In this document: positions 30,152 through 64,000 of the stretch, one piece after another
Layout of the letters: every line of letters starts with the position of its first letter
How positions within the stretch are numbered: position 1 is the stretch's first letter
Assembly (NCBI GenBank): GCA_024280735.1
Contig: JAJRPO010000025.1
Coordinates: 1 to 64,000 of the forward strand
Direction of reading: 5' to 3'
DNA length: 64,000 nucleotides
Source of the DNA: Alphaproteobacteria bacterium
GTDB lineage: Bacteria > Pseudomonadota > Alphaproteobacteria > Rhodobacterales > Rhodobacteraceae
Made by a program: the position numbers and the translations under genes
The notes under the pieces: model-generated
Database searches by the model: none
What the model was told of the DNA's origin: nothing
The model's input: the letters and a program-made list of their open reading frames with translations, nothing else

Positions 30152-30499
30152 TCAGCCCGGCTCAAAACTACAATGGTTAGATGCTTGGGAGAAAAATGCG
30201 GTTTTAGATTCTGCATATAAGGAAATAACTTTATCCAAATCCACATCACCCACCTGCCCGTTTTGAGCGAGGATTTCACCCTCGGAGCAATAATCGCCAA
30301 AGGTTTTAAAGCCCAGATTATAAGCACTCCCTTTTAGGAAATGCAAAGCAGAGGCCACATCCTCCGGCGATTTTGGCCGGTTATTGGACAAAACGGAGAC
30401 AGCTTCGTCAACTTCTGCCATAAACAAAGTAACCACCTCGCCAAAATCCTCGACCCCTATGTCTTCTTCCAACTGCCGGATCTGAACCCAATCTATCAT
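30152..30499 (-). CDS. Histidine phosphotransfer (Hpt) domain protein
   Basis: ALHFLKGSAYNLGFKTFGDYCSEGE matches the Hpt phosphoacceptor motif HxLKGSxxxLG. Confidence 0.82.
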   Translation of the reverse strand: MIDWVQIRQLEEDIGVEDFGEVVTLFMAEVDEAVSVLSNNRPKSPEDVASALHFLKGSAYNLGFKTFGDYCSEGEILAQNGQVGDVDLDKVISLYAESKTAFFSQASNHCSFEPG

Positions 30500-30513
30500 C
30501 GCGCTATTCCTTA

Positions 30514-31848
30514 CTATTGGCGGAAACGGGCCGTTAACAACGGGCCATTTAACCGATACTGGATAGTTTCTAGAATAATGCCGTTGGTATTTGCCGTCGC
30601 CACCGCATTAATCCGGCTGTCCGATTCATAAACCCCAGAATTAAACCCGTCTTTTGGCGTTGCGGTAACAGCCACATGGCGCATCAAACGGCTGGTATAA
30701 TCGGTAGCATAAAGAGCATCCCAGCCAAAAGCAGCCTTGGTAGAGACCGTTCGTTTATCGTCATGTTCAGTACCATCTTCAGACAATGCATTCCAGGCGA
30801 CGCCATCTGCAAAAACTGAATTGTAAATAAAATACGGTTCTTGGTCGATATTATCCTCACTGACCGCAGTGAGCTGCCCCGTGTCATTATAACGATTCAA
30901 CTGCGCCAAGAATACGCGTTGTGCCAATTCGGCGGCCTCTGTGTCTAGGCCAAATTCTATCGCTGTCAGGATATATGGTTCGCTAACAACATAATTATGG
31001 GCATCAAAATCCTTGAAGGACCGGCTGTCAATCGCAATGGACTGACCGCCTATCGACTCAAAACGCAGGAAATCATCGTATTTGGCGGCAACCATTGCAT
31101 CCAAACCCAGTAACCCAATCGCGCGGGCCGCATATTCTTCATAACCCAGACGCCCTTCTTGGATCTGTTCGACAGCCCCTGAACCTTCTGCCAAGCGCGC
31201 CCCGTGCAGAACCCCGCCAATCAGCAAACCCGAAAAATCCCACTTTGTTAGAATAGCAGTGGCTTTACCAGAGTGTGCGGGATAATCGTAAAGCAGGATA
31301 TTTAGGGGCACTGTCATGCGCGCAACATCCAAAGCTGACCAACCAATTCCGGCCGCTACAGGCGAATTTGCATAATCCGTCATTGCCAGTGTTCTGGTGT
31401 CATAAACCTTATTTGGCAATCTGCCATCGAACAAGGCCAGCCCAGCCAAAGTATCCAGCACCCGCGCCATGCGGAAGTCAAAGACTTCGCGATCTATGAT
31501 ACCAATACGTTCAGCAGAAATCAGTGCCAACAAATAGGATGCCTGATCCCAAATGGTCGTTGAAGGAAATCCTCCAGCCGAATTTACCAATCCAGTTGCA
31601 GGTTGGAAATTTTTTTCAAAATATCCCCACGCTATTCTGGCGTTTTGCAGATCATCACTTCGCAACCCACGAGGCGGGGCAAGCGGTAACGGATTATCGG
31701 AGGGCTGAATGGCCACATAGCCCTTACTCCGATAGCTGCCCAAATCCACGTGTGTTTCTAACGACAGCGCAAAAGTTGCCGCGAGGGATAGCCCCAGGAC
31801 AAATGCAATATGACTGCGAGCTTTGACAAGATTGGCGCGAAAACTCAT
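30514..31848 (-). CDS. DUF3131 domain-containing exported protein
   Basis: NARIAWGYFEKNFQPATGLVNSAGGFPSTTIWDQASYLLAL; paralogue of 59350-61209. Confidence 0.82.
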   Translation of the reverse strand: MSFRANLVKARSHIAFVLGLSLAATFALSLETHVDLGSYRSKGYVAIQPSDNPLPLAPPRGLRSDDLQNARIAWGYFEKNFQPATGLVNSAGGFPSTTIWDQASYLLALISAERIGIIDREVFDFRMARVLDTLAGLALFDGRLPNKVYDTRTLAMTDYANSPVAAGIGWSALDVARMTVPLNILLYDYPAHSGKATAILTKWDFSGLLIGGVLHGARLAEGSGAVEQIQEGRLGYEEYAARAIGLLGLDAMVAAKYDDFLRFESIGGQSIAIDSRSFKDFDAHNYVVSEPYILTAIEFGLDTEAAELAQRVFLAQLNRYNDTGQLTAVSEDNIDQEPYFIYNSVFADGVAWNALSEDGTEHDDKRTVSTKAAFGWDALYATDYTSRLMRHVAVTATPKDGFNSGVYESDSRINAVATANTNGIILETIQYRLNGPLLTARFRQ

Positions 31849-33698
31849 GCGGCCTCCTTAACGATAAGACGGTTTTTAACATCAATTTCCGAATTTTCTT
31901 CGACGGGTGGCTTCCACAATGCCGCGAAAATCAGAACTGACATTGCCCAAGTATTTGTCAGCCCCCAAAAACTGTTCACGACAAATGACCCCAATGCCTT
32001 TTGATCAGGGGTAATCAAAAGGCTAACGCCCGCAAATGTTATTGCCGATAGCGTAAGGATCACAACAGCAATCTGTGGGTAGACCAAGCGCAAGAACAGG
32101 TCTTCTTTGCGCGTCTTTGGCGTTACTTTGAACTTAATCTCTTGTCGGGTCGCCACAGCCCAAATCGCCTGTAGGTTAAAAGAAAAGAATGCGAGGTTGA
32201 GCATTTTTCCTTTGCGGTTATCAACGCCCCAGGTGCCCGCAGCCGAGGCCAATTCATGAATTATCAGAAAGGGTAGAAGATGGGCGAAAAACTCCGAAGA
32301 ATAGGCCGCAATCGGGGTTACGCCGGTGAATAATGCAATAATAGGCGCGGAGATGAATATTACATTCCAAAGCGGTGCCAAATAGGACCAAAAGGTCATC
32401 GCGAACATCAGTTTTTGACTTAAATTCAAGCCCTTGCGAAACAAGGGGTTGTCATTTGCCATAATATCAAGCGTACCACCTGCATATTTGAAACGCTGCA
32501 TTGCCCAGCTTTGCATATCAAGCGGCGATAACATTTTGATTTCCACACCGGGATGGAGGACAGACTTCCAATTACGATCACTGTCAGACAGCAAAACAAG
32601 GGAAGTATAGATATCCTCTGACACATGATATTTATAGGGCGTCACTTCTGTCGCGTGAAGCATTTCTATATTTAGCGCGGCCTCAATCGACCGGCGTTGT
32701 TCGGCGTCCTTAATGTGACTGCTGAAATCCGACACTTTCGCAGTAACATTGTCAGAAAACGCTTTGAGCGCTGCTTCCATCACTGCGTCGCGCCGGTGGA
32801 CCGAACCTGCCCCACAGCAGAACGAGGCATTCGCCCCGTTACGCCGCCTTTGAATGATGTCGTAAAATAGCTTGGGGTCACTCACAAATGGGTCAGCGCC
32901 AATGCGAACAGGGCCAATACACCGTTGAATTCCTTTCCCGACTAGATCACCAATCCGCCCAGTACGCGCTGCGAGATAGTTTTCAAGACGCTGCCCTTCG
33001 GGCATATCGTAGAACCACTGCGGTGTCTGAACCCAGGCAACATCTGGATCACGAAAATATCCAAGTGTGTTTTGTAATAATGTAGGAAATGGCCGTGTAT
33101 CGCTGTCCAGTATCACGAGAAAATCACCACAGGTCTGCTCCATCCCGTTGCGCAGGTTACCGGCTTTATAGCCAATATTACTGTTCCGAGTAATGTAATT
33201 CACATCTTCTTGGCGAGCAACATCCTGCATTTCTTGCCGATTTCCATCGTCGAGAACATGTATTCGAATATCGATTGGAAATGAATAGTTAACTGCTTTT
33301 GCATCGCGAATAGAGTAACGCGTTAATTCAGGATCTTCGTTGAATGTTGGAAGGAAAACATCAACGCTGATCAACTTATTGCCACCATTCTCGATGATAT
33401 CAGACCGCAATTCCGGCGCAATTTGTGGTTTTGTATCAGCGATGGACCACAGGTTGTGAAAGAACAATAACAACCCGATATAGGCGCAAGATTCGGCCAC
33501 AACAACCGGTATCGAGAACCACAAAGCATCTGTATTTAGGGAAAATGACCACCGCCACCAAAGATACCAGGCCCCCAAAAGAATAGTAGCAGACGCAAGT
33601 GTCTGCCAAATAAATTCGGTATTCATGCAATGGGGAATAGGCGGGTCGGGTTGCCTTGTTTCATACTGCGAGAAATAAAATTCCTTAAGCTTCGTCAT
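31845..33698 (-). CDS. Cellulose-synthase-like family 2 glycosyltransferase
   Basis: VFLPTFNEDPELTRYSIRDAKAV, HVLDDGNRQ, LDSDTRPFP, SEDIYTS; multiple TM helices; start at MTKLKEF or 33713. Confidence 0.88.
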   Translation of the reverse strand: MTKLKEFYFSQYETRQPDPPIPHCMNTEFIWQTLASATILLGAWYLWWRWSFSLNTDALWFSIPVVVAESCAYIGLLLFFHNLWSIADTKPQIAPELRSDIIENGGNKLISVDVFLPTFNEDPELTRYSIRDAKAVNYSFPIDIRIHVLDDGNRQEMQDVARQEDVNYITRNSNIGYKAGNLRNGMEQTCGDFLVILDSDTRPFPTLLQNTLGYFRDPDVAWVQTPQWFYDMPEGQRLENYLAARTGRIGDLVGKGIQRCIGPVRIGADPFVSDPKLFYDIIQRRRNGANASFCCGAGSVHRRDAVMEAALKAFSDNVTAKVSDFSSHIKDAEQRRSIEAALNIEMLHATEVTPYKYHVSEDIYTSLVLLSDSDRNWKSVLHPGVEIKMLSPLDMQSWAMQRFKYAGGTLDIMANDNPLFRKGLNLSQKLMFAMTFWSYLAPLWNVIFISAPIIALFTGVTPIAAYSSEFFAHLLPFLIIHELASAAGTWGVDNRKGKMLNLAFFSFNLQAIWAVATRQEIKFKVTPKTRKEDLFLRLVYPQIAVVILTLSAITFAGVSLLITPDQKALGSFVVNSFWGLTNTWAMSVLIFAALWKPPVEENSEIDVKNRLIVKEAA

Positions 33699-33855
33699 AT
33701 GATCCTCTTGCAAAATCGAATAATCTAAGGTTTCGCAGACAGGTACCTAATTTTTAGTTAGCAAATGAATATATTATTTTTTATTTGCTTCATCAAAATT
33801 TAAACTGTCGCTGCAATTGTCACGCTAATCTTGTAGGTAAGTGGATGGGTAATTC

Positions 33856-35142
33856 GTGAAACAGTCGCAAACAGCTGAAGACAAGTATCAAGCCGCTACC
33901 GATACAGAAAGCCCAATTCCACTACGGGTTTTGGTTGTCGATGACAGCGCATTGCAGCGACGCATCGTAGCTCTTAGCCTTAAAAGATGGGGGTTTAGCA
34001 TTCAAGAGGCCACATCTGGCCTGGAAGCGCTTGAAATATGTAAATCAGACCAGATAGACCTTGTGATAAGCGATTGGGTGATGCCCGAAATGGACGGGTT
34101 GGAATTCTGCAAAGAGTTTAGAAAACTCAAGCGGGAGCGCTATGGTTATTTTATTCTAGTCACGTCCAAAAATGACAAGAATGACGTTGCACAAGGCCTA
34201 GATGCAGGTGCCGATGATTTTTTGTCCAAACCCGTGAACAAAGAAGAGTTGAAGGCACGGATCCGGGCGGGCACTCGGGTTCTAGAGATGGAACAGGAAC
34301 TCCATTCTCAGAACGGCGTTGTGAAGAATGCCTTGAAGGAATTGCAGGGGTTATATGATGAAATCAACCGGGATTTAGTTGAAGCTGAAAAACTGCAACA
34401 TTCCCTTATTCCCGTACGCCACGAAAAACTGGAAAACGCCGAAATCTCTCTATTATTTCAGTCCAGCGGGCACGTAGGCGGTGATTTAGTTGGTTTCTTC
34501 AGGTTCTCAAGAAATCGAATAGGGATATTTTCTTTAGACGTTTCTGGCCATGGCATTTCATCTGCCCTTCTCACGGTGCGGTTGGCCGGGTATTTAAGCC
34601 CCCACAATAAAACACAAAACATCGCCTTTGAACCTATGCCGGAAGGCGGGTACTCACATCGATCACCAAAAGATATCGCAAAGCTACTGAATGAGCGGAT
34701 GATGGACGAAATGGATACCGAACATTACTTTACTCTGGCCTTTGCCGACGTCGATCTAGAAACTGGCCACGTCATAATGGTTCAGGCTGGGCATCCACAT
34801 CCGGTCATTTTCAATCCCGAAACCGGGGTCCGTTTCATGGGGGAAGGTGGCGTGCCAATCGGCCTGTTACCAGAAGTAGAATATGACAATTTCGAGTTTG
34901 ACCTAAAGGCCGGTGACAGATTGTTGCTGCATTCAGATGGCGTTACTGAATGCCAGAATATTAAGGGTGATCTGTTTGATGAGGACGGTTTGGAAAGCAT
35001 GTTGGTGAAAAAACTGGACGGCAGCGGCCCGGAATTCATGGACGATTTGATGTGGCAATTAACAGAATTCAGTGAAGGCGAGCCATTCGGTGACGATGTA
35101 TCGGCAATTCTATTAGAATTTGATGGAAAAACTGAAGGCTAA
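33856..35142 (+). CDS. Response regulator: receiver domain fused to SpoIIE/PP2C-type phosphatase (RsbU/HsbR-like)
   Basis: VLVVDDSALQRRIVALSL, DLVISDWVMPEMDGLEF; PP2C motifs SLDVSGHGISSALLT, LLHSDGVTE, FGDDVSAILLEF. Confidence 0.9.
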   Translation: MKQSQTAEDKYQAATDTESPIPLRVLVVDDSALQRRIVALSLKRWGFSIQEATSGLEALEICKSDQIDLVISDWVMPEMDGLEFCKEFRKLKRERYGYFILVTSKNDKNDVAQGLDAGADDFLSKPVNKEELKARIRAGTRVLEMEQELHSQNGVVKNALKELQGLYDEINRDLVEAEKLQHSLIPVRHEKLENAEISLLFQSSGHVGGDLVGFFRFSRNRIGIFSLDVSGHGISSALLTVRLAGYLSPHNKTQNIAFEPMPEGGYSHRSPKDIAKLLNERMMDEMDTEHYFTLAFADVDLETGHVIMVQAGHPHPVIFNPETGVRFMGEGGVPIGLLPEVEYDNFEFDLKAGDRLLLHSDGVTECQNIKGDLFDEDGLESMLVKKLDGSGPEFMDDLMWQLTEFSEGEPFGDDVSAILLEFDGKTEG

Positions 35143-35219: not shown

Positions 35220-36743
35220 TTGTCGAAGATTTTCAAACTTGTGCCAATTAGGGGTTTCATTCCGGCATTTTGCTTGTTGATTCTGGGTGCTTGCGCTGCA
35301 GTCATACCAAAACAAGCCATTCGAGTTGCGCAACCTGACAATTCGCCGGTTCGTAATTTCACCTCTTTCAGCCCATCATTGCGGTGTATGGATAACATGC
35401 TTGCAACTGCAAAACGCCCACGGGTTCTAATTTCCTCCACTGGGTTTCCGGATCTCTCCAAAAAGGTGACGGTCGGCGCAGATGAGATGTTGGTGAACGC
35501 GATAAATCAAATGAATCGCCAAAGTGGAACCTACGTTTTCATTGATCAGTCCTTGGAAAAGGACTGGGGTCAAATTGACCTTCTCACACCGCAAGAAGAA
35601 AACTTGCGTCCCCGCTACTACATTCGAGCAGCAGTCACGCAGGTGGATAAAGGCGTGGTTTCAGATAACGGCGCGCTGGATCTGAATCTTACAAATACGC
35701 CGAACCCATGGAATCCATTTAAAATTTCCCCCCAAAATGCAGAACTCAGCGCCGGGCGCGAGGTCGCGGTAATTACTGTCGACATGCATTTAGTTTCTTT
35801 TCCAGACAAGATTATTGTGCCTGGCTCTTCAGTCGCCAACTCCATGGTTGTTGTCACGAACAGTCGGGGCGCAGGTGTGGGGGGCCTTATCCGGCTGACA
35901 GGGTTCGATTTTTCTATTAAAATCAGCCGTGTGGAAAGCCTTGGGCAAGCGGTCCGTAATTTGGCGGAACTCGGTGTGATCGAGTTGCTAGGGCGCCACG
36001 CGCGGGTTCCCTATTGGAATTGCCTCAACATTCGCCCTAGCAATCAAAAACTCGACAATCTCGACGAAGTTCGTTTCAATGCTATGTCGCGCCCGTCCAA
36101 AATCTCCGAGGCGCAAAAATTGTTGGCATTCCTTGGCTATTGGAGTGGCGAACCCTCTGGAAGGCTTGGGCAAACAACCCGAAAAGCAATCAGTCATTTT
36201 CAAGCAGACAATAAGCTGATCGCAACGGGGGAACTGAATTACCAACTCTTTATTCTGTTGAAAGAAAGGGCGCGCGGATTTAGCAAAAATAGAAACCCGT
36301 TCCCAAGCAAGCCGAAACCTCTGTTACCTCCAGCTATTTCCCTTACATCGGATCGAGCAACCTATCGCAAAGGGGATGTTTTGCAATTACAGCTTTCCGT
36401 TCAAAAAGACGGGTTTGTTACTTGTTTCCATCAAACCGGTCGTGGAGGAATCGTTCAGATTTTGCCGGCAATACCAGGGCAAAGGATACAGGCACGTGGC
36501 GGAACTGTGCTAAATATTCCGGATCGAAATGCCAAATTCGATATCAAGTTTGAGGCTAAGGGTACCGAAGAAGGCGTGCTTTGCATTCTCGACAGCGTTT
36601 CAAAAGAAAAAGCCAATCCAATCGCTTTAGCAAGAGGTGCATTGAAACCTGAGAATGCCCGATCCTTTCAGGAAATCGCCGAAATCTATCACCGCAACAG
36701 GAAAGAAATATCGACCACTGAGTTTCGGACCCGGTCTCGCTAG
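35220..36743 (+). CDS. Lipoprotein with CsgG/HfaB-like region, peptidoglycan-binding-like domain and DUF4384
   Basis: Lipobox LLILGAC; CsgG-like central region; AQKLLAFLGYWSGEPSGRLGQTTRKAISHFQ; ISLTSDRATYRKGDVLQLQLSVQKDGFVTCFHQ. Confidence 0.72.
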   Translation: MSKIFKLVPIRGFIPAFCLLILGACAAVIPKQAIRVAQPDNSPVRNFTSFSPSLRCMDNMLATAKRPRVLISSTGFPDLSKKVTVGADEMLVNAINQMNRQSGTYVFIDQSLEKDWGQIDLLTPQEENLRPRYYIRAAVTQVDKGVVSDNGALDLNLTNTPNPWNPFKISPQNAELSAGREVAVITVDMHLVSFPDKIIVPGSSVANSMVVVTNSRGAGVGGLIRLTGFDFSIKISRVESLGQAVRNLAELGVIELLGRHARVPYWNCLNIRPSNQKLDNLDEVRFNAMSRPSKISEAQKLLAFLGYWSGEPSGRLGQTTRKAISHFQADNKLIATGELNYQLFILLKERARGFSKNRNPFPSKPKPLLPPAISLTSDRATYRKGDVLQLQLSVQKDGFVTCFHQTGRGGIVQILPAIPGQRIQARGGTVLNIPDRNAKFDIKFEAKGTEEGVLCILDSVSKEKANPIALARGALKPENARSFQEIAEIYHRNRKEISTTEFRTRSR

Positions 36744-55342: not shown

Positions 55343-56392
55343 TTATTGCGTAAACCCACTACAACTCGGCGGCAGCGGCGGCTCTAAAACAGTGCAGAGT
55401 AGGGATTTTATCCGTTCCGACCTTTGGCTATTTGCAATTCTGTCAGGCGGAGTTCCCTGTAGAAAAGTGGAATCACCAGAGGAAAATCCAGTAGAAAACC
55501 GCTGCAAGACTGGTTTTTGACTGAAGCCAGTCGTGGACAGAACAGACAATAGCGAGGGATTGATATTTGCTGGCTCATCCGGCTGTCGCCGCTTTGCTAC
55601 AAAACCAACAGAACGCGGAGCCAACTGAAAAGTCGAAAGCAGCGATGATTCTGTCCAAGGAACTTGTTGCCCTTGTGTGTTCACGACAACATCTCGCCTA
55701 ACACGTTTGAGCATTAACTCTACATCAATGCCCGGGGTCTCAAGATGATCCAACAAAGCGCCCGTGAAAGGGCTGTGTGCGCCCCCCCCATCATAGGCGA
55801 TATGACCCGGGGTGGTAGCGAAACTGATCAGGGTTCCTATCCTCGCCTTAGCACGGAGATCTTGCCCGCTATCAAACAGGCGATCTATACCAATGCCCCC
55901 TGATTGTAAGGGGTTGTCACGGCAAGCATCGATGAATACCAGGCTGCTGCGCAGGTTAGAACCAAGGCCGTCCAAAACCTGTTCCAGATCAATGGCTTCG
56001 TTCAAGTTATAAATATCTGACTTGCCAAAATCTGTAGGGAACAAGTAGCTACGCCCTCCCAATGTCGCCCCGTGACCAGCGAAATAAAGGAGTGTAGTGT
56101 CTGCGTCCGCGGCTCTAGATTTGAAAAACCGGATGGCTTTACGGAATTTTTCCTGATCCAGCTCTGTGGTTAAAAACACGGTATAACCCAAGGCTGAAAG
56201 GCTTTGGCTGATTGCCTCGGCATCGCGCACGGGATTGTTAAGTACGGGCAACGAGTCATATCCCCCGTTCCCAATAACCAGTGCAATCCGTTTTTCTTGG
56301 GCAACAACACCCGATGCCAAAAAGAAACCGCAGGCAATTGCCACGCAGACTACCCGTGCTGTTTTGAAATACATATCCATTGCGCTCAACAC
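55343..56392 (-). CDS. Exported caspase-like (C14) protease
   Basis: Signal peptide; RIALVIGNGGYDSLPVLNNPVRDAEAI, YFAGHGA (His) and FIDACRDNPL (Cys). Confidence 0.88.
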   Translation of the reverse strand: MLSAMDMYFKTARVVCVAIACGFFLASGVVAQEKRIALVIGNGGYDSLPVLNNPVRDAEAISQSLSALGYTVFLTTELDQEKFRKAIRFFKSRAADADTTLLYFAGHGATLGGRSYLFPTDFGKSDIYNLNEAIDLEQVLDGLGSNLRSSLVFIDACRDNPLQSGGIGIDRLFDSGQDLRAKARIGTLISFATTPGHIAYDGGGAHSPFTGALLDHLETPGIDVELMLKRVRRDVVVNTQGQQVPWTESSLLSTFQLAPRSVGFVAKRRQPDEPANINPSLLSVLSTTGFSQKPVLQRFSTGFSSGDSTFLQGTPPDRIANSQRSERIKSLLCTVLEPPLPPSCSGFTQ

Positions 56393-57096
56393 CCGTCAAC
56401 AGCCTCTTTTGTGGCAAACTCAACGCGCCGATTGAGGGAATCATCTCCCTTAACATCGGAGAGAGGCCGCGTTTCCCCCGCAGCCTCTGTTTCAATTCGG
56501 CTGGATGGGATGCCGCGCTTTTGTTTGAGATAACGAGCAACAGAATTGGCGCGGCTGTCGGACAGTTTCAAATTGTAATTCGCATCCCCAACCGTATCTG
56601 TGTGGCCAATTATCTTGATACACGATGTTGCCATCGCCTGAACCTTCAAGACATCCGACAACCGATTTAAATGCGCCTGAAACTGCGGTTCCAACGATGC
56701 AGAATCAAAGGCGAATTGCACGAAATATCCGTCTTTGGATTCAGCCGCCGCGCGCGAACCTTTGCTTGGCGATACATCATTTCTGACAGCGGTATTCGGC
56801 GGTGCAGCTGCAATCCTGACGGTGGGGGCAATCGGGCGTTGCAATATAGACTGAACCGAACCAGCCAAGGGCAGCGTGGTTGTGTCCTCAAGGGCATCAT
56901 TAAGCTTGAGCACAATACCGCGCCCGACCCCATTGGCGATCACCAAACAATTACCACTTGTCTCCGGCGAGAGCGCCAAATGGATAGCGCAATTGTCAGC
57001 GTTCAAGGGTAGCTCGATACTCGACTGACCAAATGCAGGCATCGCCACCATACCCGCAAGCACCGCGCAAAGGGTCCATTTACTCGTTAACTGCAT
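56386..57096 (-). CDS. OmpA-family C-terminal domain exported protein
   Basis: Signal peptide from 57096; IKIIGHTDTVGDANYNLKLSDSRANSVARYL. Confidence 0.88.
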   Translation of the reverse strand: MQLTSKWTLCAVLAGMVAMPAFGQSSIELPLNADNCAIHLALSPETSGNCLVIANGVGRGIVLKLNDALEDTTTLPLAGSVQSILQRPIAPTVRIAAAPPNTAVRNDVSPSKGSRAAAESKDGYFVQFAFDSASLEPQFQAHLNRLSDVLKVQAMATSCIKIIGHTDTVGDANYNLKLSDSRANSVARYLKQKRGIPSSRIETEAAGETRPLSDVKGDDSLNRRVEFATKEAVDGC

Positions 57097-57235
57097 GTTC
57101 AATACCTCCATTTCCGACAGGTTAGACCCAGAACCTGAACATATCGTTATCCCCGTCTGCAAATTTATTTTTGCTGGCAACTGTTTGGTAGGGAAATTGT
57201 GAAATGACGGGGGGACATAACGAAAAAGGCACCAA

Positions 57236-58396
57236 ATGAGCAGTAATCCTTCAAGTGGAAACACATCCGGGCGTATGATTTGGCTCGACAGCTTACGTCT
57301 TATAGCGGGCCTATCTATCGTGGGCTTACATGCTTCCTCTGACGTAAACGGGCAGCCATTTCCAGATTTTGAAACGACACAGCGTATTTTTCCTGTTTTA
57401 TTCCGCGCAGTTATCTATATCGCACGGACAGAGCTATTCCTGTTGATCTCGCTGTTCCTGCTTTGCTTGTCTCTGGATCGGCGTCCTCGCAGCTATGCCG
57501 AAACGATTCGGGAACAGGCGCGGCGGCTGTTGATCCCATTTCTATTTTGGACAGTATTTTATGCATTTTTTCGATTAATCAAGGCTAAGACATTTGGTTA
57601 TGATGCAGCAATTTGGGCTGAATTGGCGACTTTGTGGCACTGGGGGCGTTATCTCCTGCTCGGCAGTGTCCAATATCACATGCATTTCCTCCCAACGCTT
57701 TTCGGGCTGATTCTCATCTATCCACTGTACCAATTTGCAACGCGTAATCCATGGCTCGGGCTAATTGTATTCCTCTGCCTGTTTGTAAAACGAGAGGCCG
57801 ATGTCTGGATGTGGGCGAACCTGCAGTCTATGGACGGATTCCCTTATCTGGTGCGTGGCATTAAGATTCTGACTTACGCAGGCTATGGTATGGTTGCCGG
57901 CAGTTTTGTCGGTCTGGCCAAGCAGGGAATGGACAGCAAGCGGTTGAATGATTGGCTTTTCTTCGCGCTCACCACCGGCGTTCTACTGTTTGGAATAAAG
58001 TTGATTTATTCCTATAAAGTTATCTACAGCGGCAATTGGCAATATAATTACACGCCCGCTTTTTGGGCAGATTTTCTGATGCCCGTTGTTCTATTTTTGG
58101 CCTGTATGGCAGCAGCACTTCGTCGCTGGCCACAAGTAATTTCTCGGCTGGCACCCTACAGTTTCGGCATTTATCTGGTTCATCCAGTATTCCTTGACGC
58201 CCTAGAAATTTGGCTATGGCAAGGGGATACAAATCCAACTGTTTATGTTTTGACCAAATTCGGGTGCGCCGTACTTGCAACGGGTTTGGCCGTTTGGACT
58301 CTGTCGAAGGTCCCGTTTCTTGGCTGGACAGTTGGCCTTGGCCCACTACCAATTCCCAAATTCATCAAACGTCAATCAGTTGATGTTCAAAGTTGA
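57236..58396 (+). CDS. Acyltransferase 3 family membrane protein
   Basis: IWLDSLRLIAGLSIVGLHASSD; ~10 hydrophobic segments; YSFGIYLVHPVFLD. Confidence 0.85.
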   Translation: MSSNPSSGNTSGRMIWLDSLRLIAGLSIVGLHASSDVNGQPFPDFETTQRIFPVLFRAVIYIARTELFLLISLFLLCLSLDRRPRSYAETIREQARRLLIPFLFWTVFYAFFRLIKAKTFGYDAAIWAELATLWHWGRYLLLGSVQYHMHFLPTLFGLILIYPLYQFATRNPWLGLIVFLCLFVKREADVWMWANLQSMDGFPYLVRGIKILTYAGYGMVAGSFVGLAKQGMDSKRLNDWLFFALTTGVLLFGIKLIYSYKVIYSGNWQYNYTPAFWADFLMPVVLFLACMAAALRRWPQVISRLAPYSFGIYLVHPVFLDALEIWLWQGDTNPTVYVLTKFGCAVLATGLAVWTLSKVPFLGWTVGLGPLPIPKFIKRQSVDVQS

Positions 58397-58429: not shown

Positions 58430-58777
58430 ATGAACCTCGAGACACAGAAATACGGCGATGTCATTATAGTGCGGCTTTGCGAAGGGCGTTTGGATGCCGC
58501 ACTTTCCGTTCGCTTCAAAGAAGGAATGCGTGAAATTGTGGATGCTGGTGCTACCGATATCGTACTCGACTTAGGCGAAGTGGCTTTTATGGACAGCTCC
58601 GGCCTTGGCGCTGTTGTTTCTGTCATGAAACACATCGGACGTGAAAAAACCTTCCGTATTGCCGCATTAACCCCAGCCGTGGACAAGGTTTTTAAACTGA
58701 CCCGTATGGACAGTGTCTTTAAAATCCTTTCTTCGCCGAACGACGCAATTGACCAGGCTTTGAAAGCAACCGGTTAA
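58430..58777 (+). CDS. STAS-domain anti-sigma factor antagonist
   Basis: VVLDLGEVAFMDSSGLGAVVSVMKHIG-type motif with conserved Ser. Confidence 0.9.
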   Translation: MNLETQKYGDVIIVRLCEGRLDAALSVRFKEGMREIVDAGATDIVLDLGEVAFMDSSGLGAVVSVMKHIGREKTFRIAALTPAVDKVFKLTRMDSVFKILSSPNDAIDQALKATG

Positions 58778-58822: not shown

Positions 58823-59251
58823 TTGCAATACTCAACGCAAATAAAGAGTCGGCAGCCCGCAGTCACAAGTGTGGTTGCCGACGTTGAGGGTCAACTCTGC
58901 GCTAGTGGCGTCAATCCTGAGCAAACGGGCGAAGTGTGCCTCGTATTGGCGGAAGCATTAAATAACGTTGTTGAACACGCCTATCGATACTCAGAAGACG
59001 GGGATATCGAAGTAGATTTGTCATTAATCAATCAAAACCTAACAATTAATATTAGCGACTTTGGGCCGGAGTTTTCAGTGCCAGAACCGCGGCCCGTGTC
59101 AGACCCATCAACAAAGGCATTTGAAGATCTGCCAGAAGGGGGGTTTGGCTGGCGCCTGATTCAGATGTTGACTGATGAAGTAAGCGTAAGGCGCGAAAAT
59201 AACAGAAATCACTTGCAACTAAAAAAACACTTGCATGGCAATACTCCCTAG
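58823..59251 (+). CDS. RsbW-like GHKL ATP-binding protein (serine kinase/anti-sigma factor)
   Basis: TTG start; EALNNVVEHAYRYSEDGDIEV, ISDFGPEF, PEGGFGWRLIQMLTDEVSV. Confidence 0.85.
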   Translation: MQYSTQIKSRQPAVTSVVADVEGQLCASGVNPEQTGEVCLVLAEALNNVVEHAYRYSEDGDIEVDLSLINQNLTINISDFGPEFSVPEPRPVSDPSTKAFEDLPEGGFGWRLIQMLTDEVSVRRENNRNHLQLKKHLHGNTP

Positions 59252-59349: not shown

Positions 59350-61209
59350 TTGCTGCTCAATGGAACAAATGAAGGAATAACAATGCGCAGTGCTGTCAGT
59401 AAAACAGGTTTCTATGTGACGGTTGCATTTGTTACTGTTTCCTCCCTTACCGCTGTTGTTTTACTAGGGGGAGCAGTTGGGGAAACAATCCAGGCAAATC
59501 AAAAAGTTGCAGCAGAGAAGCTGGCCACAGCGCGTAAAGAAATACAAAATGACAACTTGTCCTTTAAGAAAACTGATTCAGGCGCAAATTCGCCACCAGC
59601 CGCCCCATTCCCTGTGACCACTGGTCTGTCCCCTTCAGAGGGTTTCGGAGACAACTTTCAATATGTCAATCTAACCGTGCAAAATGAAGGGATATTACCA
59701 AACCTACTTCGCGGAAAATTACCTGTTCAAACCACTTCTACAGAGTTTGGCGAGCAGCAAATAAAACGCCCGCCGCGCTTGTGTGACATGCCTGAAGACT
59801 ACTTTGAAAAGCTGGCGGAGGCACAAGAAGATCTCTCCCCCGGTTACACCGATAGAAACGGTTATGTACGCCGTTACAAGGCCCGCCGTGGTTTTTTAAA
59901 TGATCGGGAAATGAAGGCCGCCAACATTGCTTGGGGATACTTTGAAAAATTTACTCAAGAAACTACTGGCCTTGCCAATTCAGTTGGGGCCTACCCTTCC
60001 ACAACACTTTGGGATACGGCCTCCTACATCAGCGGACTTGTCGCAGCGTATGAATTATGCTTGATCGAGAAACCAGTTTTCGACAAACGGATTCTGCAAC
60101 TGCTGACAACTTTTCGCACACTCAAGCTTTTCCGTCGCGAACTGCCCAACAAGGTTTATCACACCAAAACCGGAGAACAGGTAGACTACTCCAACAAGCC
60201 AGGCGAAATTGGGTATTCCGCCTTGGATATTGGTCGCTTTCTGGTTTGGATGCGCATTTGTCGGAACCGTTATCCCTACCTCGCAAATACAATTGATAAT
60301 CTATTGTTAAAATGGGATTTTTCGCGTGTTCTGGACAAGGAAGGCATTTTGTACGGTGCCTCTGTAGACAAGAAAACAAAAGAAACCAAATATGTCCAAG
60401 AAGGTCGTTTGGGTTATGAAGAATACGCCGCGAAAGGGTTTGCCCTTTGGGGATTCAAAACCGCCTTCGCCCATCGCGCAGAACCCTATCTTACCACAAA
60501 TATTTTTGGTGTTCGTGTTCCTTATGACGGCCGCGATCCGCGTGTTTTTCATTCGCAGAACTATGTTGTTACAGAAAGCTACCTTTTGGATGGATTGGAG
60601 CTGAACTGGGACTTGCCGCATGACGACAGCTCTAGTGACCTCGTACACACAGATGGCTGGCGCGCGGAATTTGCCGATCGTATTTATCAGGTGCAACACA
60701 ATCGGTTTGAACGAGAAGGTTACATGACGGCCCGTTCAGAACACAACGTAAAAGGCCCTCCTTATTTCACGTACGATACAATCTTTTCCGATGGCTACCC
60801 ATGGAACACCGTGACCCCGCGCGGCGATTACTCGCCGGACCATGCCGCAGTCGCCACTAAGGCCGCCTTTGGCCTGTGGGCGCTATGGGACAGCTATTAC
60901 ACTGATATTCTTTACGACGCCGTAATCGAACTATTCGATCCGGAGCGTGGTTTCTTTGAGGGGCTGTATGAAACCGGTGGTGGCCACATTAAAATTCAAA
61001 CAGCCAATAACAATGGTATTCTCTTAGCCTCCCTGCTGCATAAAGTTCAGGGCCGTATTCTGACCCCTGGCCGGGGCGGCTCGGAGGTTTGGTACACCCG
61101 TTTTCGAGATCGAGATATTCGCATCAAAAGGCAGCTTCCTGATCCACCTCAAAGGGCAGACTGGTTGCCTGCCTATCGACATCCCGCACAATTGGAGGAA
61201 ACTCAATGA
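59350..61209 (+). CDS. DUF3131 domain-containing membrane/exported protein
   Basis: NIAWGYFEKFTQETTGLANSVGAYPSTTLWDTASYISGL; N-terminal TM; start may be 59383 (MRSAVSKTG). Confidence 0.82.
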   Translation: MLLNGTNEGITMRSAVSKTGFYVTVAFVTVSSLTAVVLLGGAVGETIQANQKVAAEKLATARKEIQNDNLSFKKTDSGANSPPAAPFPVTTGLSPSEGFGDNFQYVNLTVQNEGILPNLLRGKLPVQTTSTEFGEQQIKRPPRLCDMPEDYFEKLAEAQEDLSPGYTDRNGYVRRYKARRGFLNDREMKAANIAWGYFEKFTQETTGLANSVGAYPSTTLWDTASYISGLVAAYELCLIEKPVFDKRILQLLTTFRTLKLFRRELPNKVYHTKTGEQVDYSNKPGEIGYSALDIGRFLVWMRICRNRYPYLANTIDNLLLKWDFSRVLDKEGILYGASVDKKTKETKYVQEGRLGYEEYAAKGFALWGFKTAFAHRAEPYLTTNIFGVRVPYDGRDPRVFHSQNYVVTESYLLDGLELNWDLPHDDSSSDLVHTDGWRAEFADRIYQVQHNRFEREGYMTARSEHNVKGPPYFTYDTIFSDGYPWNTVTPRGDYSPDHAAVATKAAFGLWALWDSYYTDILYDAVIELFDPERGFFEGLYETGGGHIKIQTANNNGILLASLLHKVQGRILTPGRGGSEVWYTRFRDRDIRIKRQLPDPPQRADWLPAYRHPAQLEETQ

Positions 61210-62891
61210 CCCTTACTAGATGTAAAATCGCGGGTGTTCTTACAGCCCTTTTGTTACCAATGACGCAGCCAGTAAAGGCTCAAACCAGCGGCCAGACTGG
61301 GTTTGAGCAATCCACAGCCATTTTGGATACTGCGGTTCTCTTTGCGATCGGCGCACAAGAGGCAGATCAAGCATTACGCGGATCATTTGGTTGGCCTACC
61401 TTTCAGGAAGGTTTTGTTGAAGGCGTGTATTTTCGATTTGATCCTGATGGTTATGCAAGGTTCAGCCCTAGCCCAAGGTTGGATGAAGACGTGTTTGAGG
61501 TGATTTGCGCCCAGGCCAGCACTGCTTGTATAGCTAAAAAAGGCATTCTGGAGATTGGACTAACACCCGCTGGACAGACCCAAATCAGACTAAACGGCAT
61601 CACTCCTGACGACAGTTTCTACGTGTCCGATCGAAAATCAGAACTTCCCTTACCCCCCAGCGTTCTTGAGCCACTGGCCCCCCGTCTGGAAGCGCTACTT
61701 TCCGGCGGTGGAGAATTGATTATCAAACGAGAAGTGGAAGTGGTGCAATCTGTCTCCTTGGCCGGGTTTTCCGCAGTTGCAACCTATCTACGATGGGTCG
61801 CGCAACGCCAATCGCCACGGGTTTTCCCCAGAGGGTGGCCTGTTCCTGCACAGTCCCAAAATCAAACATTCTCCGGTTTGACACAGCCTAATCAATGGGA
61901 ATCACCGAGCGCGGGACCGCAAACCGTAGAGACAACCTGGCATATCCAACAAAAACTTCGAAAGAATGGAAATTTGGCTCTAGATGCACGCGCAAGAGAG
62001 CAGAGCCCATCAAATCAACAGCTTGGCACAGCAAACAATCAAGTTGGGGAGTTACAGCAGCAGATATTTCAACTGCAAAACAACTTACTGCAAATGCAGC
62101 AAGGCGCTGGAAACAACCGGTTTACAAACACCTCATCGTCAGGTCTCTCCACATCCAGGTATCAGGCTGAGGATTTGCAAGAATATGGCCAGGCTTTTGC
62201 TCAACAGGCCCAGGGGCGGAGTTTGCCGGCCTCCCCTGGCGGTTTAGGTGTAGGAGGGGATTCGTTATCCGCGGAACGCCCTAATACTCGGGCAGCTTCC
62301 GCCATAAATCAGTTTACTTTCCCACAAGCTCAGCAACCACGGAAAGAATGGTCCGCCTCGCCGCAAGCGGATCAAACGCACCTGGTCCGGCGCATTGAAT
62401 CACTTGAAACGTCTCTACTGGAACTCCGTCGCGACCTATCGTTACAAGTTTTCGAGTTACGTGAAGAACTTTTCACGCGCACCAGAACTCAAGCTCAAGC
62501 AGTTTTCCCCGCGATAGAACGACCAAAAACCCCCATAGGCCCCATACCTTTAAGAACGACCCAAAGTCGGCAACAACAAACGTCGGCAACAGTTCTTGAG
62601 GAACTAGAAAAAACGTTAATGGCGAGGTTAAACGCCCAGAACCAACTTCCGGAACTCCAGCAACCCGCCGCAACACTTCCAATTGATAATGCGGCGGTGA
62701 ACCGCCAGCTGATCGAAGAGATCATCAACGAGCTTGGGGGCGAAACAGGTTTACGGGGACCAACTACTTCAAGCATCGAGTCAATTCCGGCGGAGCCAGC
62801 GGAAACTTCTAGCGATTTTGTGACCTTGAACGATTATATCAACCAGGTCTTGCGGACAGAAGGGCAGCAGACACCTGCACCTGGCCGATAA
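61206..62891 (+). CDS. Exported Gln-rich protein of unknown function
   Basis: 4-bp overlap with DUF3131 gene; signal peptide MTLTRCKIAGVLTALLLPMTQPVKAQ; Q-rich coiled-coil QLGTANNQVGELQQQIFQLQNNLLQMQQG. Confidence 0.7.
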   Translation: MTLTRCKIAGVLTALLLPMTQPVKAQTSGQTGFEQSTAILDTAVLFAIGAQEADQALRGSFGWPTFQEGFVEGVYFRFDPDGYARFSPSPRLDEDVFEVICAQASTACIAKKGILEIGLTPAGQTQIRLNGITPDDSFYVSDRKSELPLPPSVLEPLAPRLEALLSGGGELIIKREVEVVQSVSLAGFSAVATYLRWVAQRQSPRVFPRGWPVPAQSQNQTFSGLTQPNQWESPSAGPQTVETTWHIQQKLRKNGNLALDARAREQSPSNQQLGTANNQVGELQQQIFQLQNNLLQMQQGAGNNRFTNTSSSGLSTSRYQAEDLQEYGQAFAQQAQGRSLPASPGGLGVGGDSLSAERPNTRAASAINQFTFPQAQQPRKEWSASPQADQTHLVRRIESLETSLLELRRDLSLQVFELREELFTRTRTQAQAVFPAIERPKTPIGPIPLRTTQSRQQQTSATVLEELEKTLMARLNAQNQLPELQQPAATLPIDNAAVNRQLIEEIINELGGETGLRGPTTSSIESIPAEPAETSSDFVTLNDYINQVLRTEGQQTPAPGR

Positions 62892-62975
62892 ACAGCACAA
62901 TTGGGTAAAACGGCGGCTACGCCAATCAGATGTCGAAATGTCGGCAACCGGTTTGAACGAACAGGACGCAGTAAG

Positions 62976-64000
62976 ATGAAAAACACGCAAAACGCGCCGG
63001 CGACCCACCACAGCGCCGCAAACTCTGCAACATTGCAAACATCCGTGGCTGAACGTTATGCTGATGCCCCCCCCTATTGGGTTCGTGTCGTGTCAGGTTT
63101 TTTGGGTTTCTTTTCCAGCCTGTTAGCACTTGGGATTCCCGCAATTGTCCTACTATTGGTAGATCGCTCTATTAGCGCGGGCAATACGGCATCACTTCCC
63201 GCCCTATTGGCGCTTGGATTTGGAACTGTACTTTCCGTGTGTCTGATCGACCTCATGCGGATGAAAGCGCTTGAAAACTACTTCTCAAATGTACGCGGAT
63301 TGGTCTTGGGTCAAGATGCAGTCTTTGCGTCGTTTTGGGCCTTTGCCATCTTGTTCATTCATCCCTTACTTGGCTTGGCAGCAAGCACAAGCGGCCTTGC
63401 CCTTTATTTGCTTTGGCGGTTTCGTGGCGACAAAAAGAAAATGTCAAACGCCGCACGAAACCAGGACATTAATCCCGTAATTATTGAGGTGGTGGGTCTT
63501 GGAGCGGCCTTTCTCCAGAAAGCTGCCACGGGGGAAATTGCGTCGGAAGACCAACCAGATTTCCAGACTGTTGGACAAGCCACACTATTGAATTTCGTGC
63601 AGATGACAGCAGGCTTGATCATGTTATTCGCCGCTATTTGGTTGCATATGGCAGGTAAAATATCACTAGGAACCGGTATAGCAGCCATATTCCTAAATCA
63701 ATACATTGTGTCCGTATTCGTGCGCTGCTTTCAGGTTCAATCTCTCAGGCCACCAGCGCCAGATTTGACATTTTTTTCAATAGTTGAAAATCAGGATAAC
63801 TCCCGCCTAGACTCCCCGTCTCCCGACAATATCGGGCCTGTCATGTTGTCAATTGAAAGCCTTGAGAGCAGGGGTTTTGAGCCGCTTTCAGTGGACATAT
63901 TTCAGGGGCTTTGCCTCGCTCTCATTGGTCCGTCCGGCTCTGGTAAATCAGACGTTTTGCGGGCCATTGCTACGGGTGTGTTTGATGAAGGTAAAATCAC
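62976..64000 (+). CDS. ABC transporter with N-terminal TM domain and C-terminal ATPase (exporter-like), truncated by window end
   Basis: Open frame from ATG 62976 to the edge: MKNTQNAPATHHSAANSATLQTSVAERYADAPPYWVRVVSGFLGFFSSLLALG... ending ...LCLALIGPSGSGKSDVLRAIATGVFDEGKI (Walker A). Not listed in the ORF track because it lacks a stop in the window. Confidence 0.8.
   Translation, partial: MKNTQNAPATHHSAANSATLQTSVAERYADAPPYWVRVVSGFLGFFSSLLALGIPAIVLLLVDRSISAGNTASLPALLALGFGTVLSVCLIDLMRMKALENYFSNVRGLVLGQDAVFASFWAFAILFIHPLLGLAASTSGLALYLLWRFRGDKKKMSNAARNQDINPVIIEVVGLGAAFLQKAATGEIASEDQPDFQTVGQATLLNFVQMTAGLIMLFAAIWLHMAGKISLGTGIAAIFLNQYIVSVFVRCFQVQSLRPPAPDLTFFSIVENQDNSRLDSPSPDNIGPVMLSIESLESRGFEPLSVDIFQGLCLALIGPSGSGKSDVLRAIATGVFDEGKI

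Follow-up and report, generated by a model that had tools for sequence, protein, structure and literature searches.

In Rhodobacter capsulatus, the Rba partner switch is made up of RbaV, RbaW and RbaY, with rbaV-rbaW and rbaY located at separate loci (PMC3999984). RbaV acts as positive output, the switch is known to govern survival in stationary phase and the production of gene transfer agents, rbaV and rbaY mutants show an altered colony shape, and the Rba genes are CtrA-dependent in this organism (PMC3999984). A similar logic, from Hpt over a receiver-PP2C to a STAS protein, is realized in the HptB-HsbR-HsbA system of Pseudomonas aeruginosa, which controls biofilm and motility; HsbR itself contains a kinase/anti-sigma domain (PMC6482189). 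Partner switching is tied to polysaccharide genes, as in the DNA studied here, in SypE-SypA of Vibrio fischeri and HmpUVW of Nostoc; these differ in their protein architectures, and the consulted parts of the source report no dedicated Hpt (PMC8256260). Adjoining Hpt and receiver-SpoIIE genes were noted earlier in Dinoroseobacter shibae (Dshi_3484/Dshi_3485, rcc_00180/1 in R. capsulatus) and an interaction was suggested (PMC6473078). That study gave the Hpt no regulatory context and reported no glycan genes there, whereas our locus has them. In the literature searched, no paper took the Hpt of this pair beyond the suggested interaction.

The window, a stretch of 64,000 nucleotides, originates from a genome that belongs to the Amylibacter group of the Rhodobacteraceae; its named relatives are Amylibacter and other Rhodobacteraceae. 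On the reverse strand, a three-gene operon encodes a predicted processive, BcsA-like polysaccharide synthase (GT2, 31845..33713, Pfam matches to GT2 families only), a DUF3131 protein with an N-terminal hydrophobic helix (DUF3131-1, 30514..31848, PF11329, E 1e-134) and, as third and last gene, a stand-alone Hpt protein of 115 aa (30152..30499, PF01627 above cut-off). The start codon of GT2 is a TTG, with an in-frame ATG at 33698. Divergently oriented on the forward strand lies the gene for an RbaY-family response regulator of 428 aa with receiver and SpoIIE-type PP2C domains (33856..35142, PF00072 and PF07228). By coordinates and synteny, the 142 bases of the divergent intergenic region (33714..33855) are equivalent to the region that separates Hpt and RbaY in genomes without the insertion. 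The initial annotation had described a 4-bp overlap of GT2 and DUF3131-1 (31845-31848), a short gap to Hpt (14 bases) and the divergent receiver-SpoIIE PP2C, all of which open reading frames and Pfam confirmed. The phospho-acceptor His53 of the Hpt is intact and invariant in 21 relatives. Equally intact and conserved are the RbaY receiver residues Asp29/30, Asp73, Thr103 and Lys125 and the PP2C residues Asp210, Asp228, Asp361 and Asp413/414. Downstream of rbaY, a CsgG-like lipoprotein with PG_binding and DUF4384 domains is encoded on the forward strand (35220..36743, PF01471 and PF14326); the CsgG fold match comes from a model of moderate confidence. This lipoprotein was found only in genomes with glycan genes and is missing beside RbaY where GT2 is absent.

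The second site follows about 23 kb downstream of the Hpt/RbaY locus. The STAS protein that had been noted at 58430 is indeed present (RbaV, 58430..58777, forward strand, PF01740, alignment and tree), a stand-alone protein with the conserved and intact serines Ser56/Ser57. The RsbW-like gene and the second DUF3131 gene that stand right after it had been missed. The former encodes RbaW, a serine kinase/anti-sigma-type ATPase (HATPase_c_2, 58823..59251, forward strand, PF13581, alignment and tree) in which Glu44, Asn47/48 and Asp79 are likewise intact and conserved; the latter encodes DUF3131-2 (59350..61209, forward strand, PF11329, E 7e-115). In the window 45 bases separate rbaV from rbaW; the overlap of the rbaW start with rbaV, a minor trait of the Rba system, is missing here but was seen in relatives, L185 and L186 among them. 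Directly upstream of rbaV is a gene for a membrane acyltransferase (Acyl_transf_3, 57236..58396, forward strand, PF01757). Beyond DUF3131-2, the forward strand encodes a predicted secreted protein without Pfam match that is assigned to the polysaccharide set by its conserved position (61206..62891; 14 family members across the loci read) and an ABC-transporter-like protein of 666 aa, which runs past the window end (62901..64000, PF00005 in relative L185). In relatives a HlyD-type protein comes after the ABC-transporter-like gene (L208 reads 10 kb past the window). Two further members of the polysaccharide gene set, a caspase-like (C14) protein (55343..56392, PF00656) and an OmpA-family protein (56386..57264, PF00691), are encoded on the reverse strand; these two genes (55343-57264) are divergent from the acyltransferase-RbaV-RbaW operon.

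Judged by sequence, the receiver-PP2C is a member of the RbaY family, and the STAS protein at 58430 and the kinase at 58823 are RbaV and RbaW; this assignment rests on the architecture, the order-wide family and the published descriptions (PMC3999984, PMC6473078). In a PP2C tree the window protein fell inside the order-wide RbaY clade (support 100/99), apart from operon-borne PP2Cs. STAS and kinase trees clustered the window proteins with RbaV and RbaW of relatives that have no polysaccharide genes. Membership of RbaV and RbaW in the operon-borne switch type is rejected, since both fall with the core Rba proteins of glycan-less relatives in these trees. The window shares with the Rba switch of R. 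capsulatus a receiver-PP2C without kinase domain, a two-serine stand-alone STAS protein, a separate RsbW-like kinase, a location of rbaVW apart from rbaY and the absence of a sigma-factor gene among the annotated neighbours; a Pfam scan of 53.4-62.9 kb revealed no sigma-factor gene near rbaVW. In contrast to R. capsulatus, both loci of the window contain polysaccharide genes, and the synthase operon ends with hpt. The parallel to HptB-HsbR drawn by the initial annotation did not hold in detail: a fused kinase domain is missing and the kinase is encoded separately beside the STAS gene, as in Rba. A HsbR-type fusion is ruled out, since the 428-aa protein has only receiver and SpoIIE domains and no HATPase domain. 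A receiver-PP2C that itself phosphorylates the STAS protein, as the Pseudomonas model taken literally would have it, would agree with the combination of stand-alone Hpt and receiver-PP2C (PMC6482189). It is highly improbable, however, with 428 aa holding receiver and SpoIIE only and a separate kinase gene after the STAS gene; unlike HsbR, the window system has its kinase in a protein of its own.

An order-wide sample of 140 evenly drawn genomes contained 103 with both an RbaY-like match and this Hpt, and in 100 of these the two genes were adjacent and divergent with 124-333 bases between the matched segments. The three exceptions were two Amylibacter genomes with the insertion and one genome with the genes on different contigs. 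Hpt was located upstream and divergent at all 80 named RbaY loci, five of which had about 3.3 kb between Hpt and RbaY; all five are Amylibacter or close MAGs. This arrangement is far beyond chance. In six near-complete relatives (G014, G017, G020, G022, G027, G032) the Hpt was the sole PF01627 match, and together with the adjacency counts this supports Hpt and the receiver-PP2C as a dedicated pair. Within the genus, RbaY co-occurred with Hpt (p 1e-6) and with RbaV (p 1e-4), p-values that overstate independence because the genomes are related. Eight genomes had an RbaY-like match and no Hpt match: three carry the operon type instead (G144, G153, G185), in two a diverged Hpt adjoins RbaY (G119, G168), and in three the receiver is lost or altered in the acidic pocket (G081, G171, G184). 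RbaY homologues with a missing or changed receiver were read at L366, L367 and L370, in three Hpt-less genomes. Mutual information over 102 Hpt-RbaY pairs (Neff 69) showed no enrichment of column pairs that join Hpt and receiver, with 8 among the top 50 against 12 expected. TTAAC half-sites, possibly CtrA-related, occurred between hpt and rbaY in 59/70 cases (L210-L289) vs. 18 in mononucleotide shuffles; a full TTAA-N7-TTAA CtrA site was present between hpt and rbaY of the relatives in 1/70. The pairing as such was already known, new is its constancy throughout the order. The Hpt very likely feeds the divergent receiver-PP2C, as the initial annotation inferred.

We consider it likely that this locus forms the input side of the Rba switch, with a polysaccharide synthase captured inside it, and that the switch controls the making or export of a glycan. 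A hybrid histidine kinase would phosphorylate the Hpt, which would hand the phosphate to the RbaY receiver. Phosphorylated RbaY would then dephosphorylate RbaV (58430), opposed by RbaW (58823), and RbaV or the freed RbaW would act on gene expression or on the synthesis machinery. RbaV may directly target either a sigma factor or the machinery of synthesis. In this model, the transfer of phosphate, whether the control is positive or negative, and what RbaV acts on directly are inferences.

The distribution of the glycan genes relates them to both Rba sites. In Amylibacter the GT2/DUF3131 pair sits between Hpt and RbaY. Amylibacter relatives that lack GT2 have Hpt directly beside RbaY, within the same flanking genes, so the GT2-DUF3131 pair fills the space that separates the two. 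Genome G010 has a broken GT2 remnant between Hpt and RbaY and kept the Rba switch, indicating that the glycan genes were lost there. At the other site, glycan-positive members of the genus have RbaV-RbaW between the acyltransferase and DUF3131-2, enclosed by secretion genes, while most glycan-less members have RbaV-RbaW before an alpha-2-macroglobulin/PBP1C pair. This pair follows RbaV-RbaW directly in the glycan-less L181, L183, L188, L194 and L196, and is a possible alternative target. Both sites were readable in 23 genomes, 21 of the genus and two from other genera. Thirteen had glycan genes at both sites, eight at neither and two were partial (G029, G010), hence the two halves were jointly present or jointly absent in 21/23 genomes, among which kinship leaves a few independent events. 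The 99%-complete genome G009 no longer has RbaV or RbaW, and its Hpt, its GT2, the receiver of its RbaY and one further DUF3131 gene are broken (L171, L209), a joint decay that fits the expectation for one pathway. A further DUF3131 locus, seemingly unrelated, occurs widely across the genus (L202-L206, L209); immediately upstream of it lies a small ArsR-like regulator. Most (marine) Rhodobacteraceae have Hpt-RbaY without an adjoining GT2, therefore a polysaccharide cannot be the ancestral output of the switch. The same observation, together with the retention of the switch where glycan genes were lost, as in G010, would agree with a reading in which the ancient Hpt-RbaY-RbaV-RbaW system keeps its general role in stationary phase and gene transfer agents, and GT2/DUF3131 merely inserted and borrow local promoters without being controlled by the switch. 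Against this reading, which we regard as unlikely, stands the use of two chromosomal sites of one circuit that are filled or empty together. The gene context instead gives good support to control of glycan synthesis by the Rba switch, as an output particular to this lineage.

Outside Amylibacter, GT2 relatives were found in 26 of about 395 genomes searched. In the lineage closest to the GT2 of Amylibacter, here called sister lineage (lineage A), genes for PP2C, STAS and RsbW-like proteins were beside GT2 in 18/18 genomes, usually in the order PP2C-STAS-kinase-DUF3131-acyltransferase-GT2-DUF3131. The PP2Cs of these operons form a clade separate from RbaY, thus the GT2 association there is with a non-orthologous switch, and at least 3 of the 18 genomes use a PP2C without receiver. 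The different PP2C-STAS-kinase set at the sister GT2 loci of all 18 genomes likewise speaks against a mere insertion of the synthase without control by the switch. The linkage at both Rba sites and the separate PP2C-STAS-kinase sets of the sister lineage support control by partner switching. The initial proposal that partner switching controls polysaccharide synthesis thus gained support from the double linkage in Amylibacter and from the sister operons elsewhere; taking the polysaccharide as the output of the Hpt-RbaY pair went too far, since most Rhodobacteraceae have no GT2 beside that pair.

Several sister-lineage operons have hybrid kinases as neighbours, in some cases with an H-NOX gene in between. 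Where the kinase was complete it terminated in an Hpt domain, which scored above the Pfam cut-off in three and below it in one; others were truncated by the fetched region. An H-NOX (haem-NO-binding) gene and a hybrid kinase adjoin the PP2C-STAS-kinase-DUF3131-GT2 operon at L342:1486-3796, and also at L340 and L351. In L342 this hybrid kinase ends in an Hpt domain; in L340 and L351 the fetched region stops within it. A nitric-oxide-controlled polysaccharide switch is possible for this H-NOX-linked operon. The search for a sensor kinase linked to the Hpt of the Rba locus found none; the relatives have several hybrid kinases, none of them assignable. Phosphotransfer by Hpt proteins is generally reversible. 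The Hpt could therefore drain phosphate from RbaY or link it to another phosphorelay, e.g., that of CckA, so that Hpt loss would raise RbaY activity. Such a reverse flow would be in line with reversible transfer, the lack of a dedicated linked sensor kinase and the CtrA dependence of the Rba genes in R. capsulatus (PMC3999984), but the complete hybrid kinases beside operon-type PP2Cs end in Hpt, which fits a forward flow, and we hold the reverse direction to be quite improbable. The forward relay from Hpt to RbaY is retained as the preferred reading.

The second GT2 lineage (lineage B) comprises the remaining eight genomes, e.g., G061 and G033, and has neither PP2C nor kinase. Most of its genomes encode a fusion of STAS domain and nucleotidyltransferase; such proteins, which join STAS to an NDP-sugar nucleotidyltransferase with hexapeptide repeats, were read at L358:6983-8476, L359 and L361-L364, with a degenerate serine motif. 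Owing to this degenerate motif, the fusion counts only as a lead to the RbaV target. The caspase-like C14 protein is also present in the stand-alone clusters L358 and L359. A mosaic origin of the Amylibacter glycan set from these two lineages is possible: its GT2 is nearer to lineage A than to lineage B (53 vs. 41% identity); DUF3131-2 is nearer to B than to A (70 vs. 58), as is the acyltransferase (49 vs. 37).

Cellulose synthases are the nearest PDB relatives of the GT2. Pfam revealed no PilZ domain in GT2, and the match to the CelA model remained with 205 bits under the cut-off of 699. The structure model of DUF3131-1 (pLDDT 88) is an (alpha/alpha)6-barrel. It matches the folds of GH144 beta-1,2-glucanases and of the domain that performs cyclisation in cyclic glucan synthase, and more weakly that of BcsZ. 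The match to the GH144-like fold had a Foldseek E of 4e-11 and a TM of about 0.63 at an identity of only 14-16%. On the basis of this model, DUF3131-1 is a predicted glycan-processing protein. The locus resembles BcsA-BcsZ in combining a BcsA-like GT2 with a barrel-fold glycan enzyme, BcsZ being a distant fold match; in contrast to BcsA-BcsZ, the window GT2 has no PilZ domain and DUF3131 is nearer to beta-1,2-glucanase folds. Our guess for the product is a surface polymer of the beta-glucan type.

The new part is the glycan output linked to the Rba switch in Amylibacter. Tentatively, at somewhat less than an even chance, we read the wider picture as a glycan gene set that was split into both sites of a pre-existing partner-switch circuit, with a sister synthase lineage that has a non-orthologous PP2C-STAS-kinase set. 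If this is true, partner switching and not PilZ/c-di-GMP would be the standing control of the GT2/DUF3131 polysaccharide family, and the STAS protein would possibly contact the synthesis machinery directly. The input signal of RbaY and the target of RbaV have been standing questions since the description of Rba in 2014. With Hpt and RbaY paired throughout the order, the Hpt (rcc00180 in R. capsulatus) is the natural candidate for the donor to RbaY, and the fusion in Amylibacter offers a concrete candidate for a Rba output, a surface polysaccharide. The DUF3131/GT2 family would gain a regulator and a likely biochemical role.
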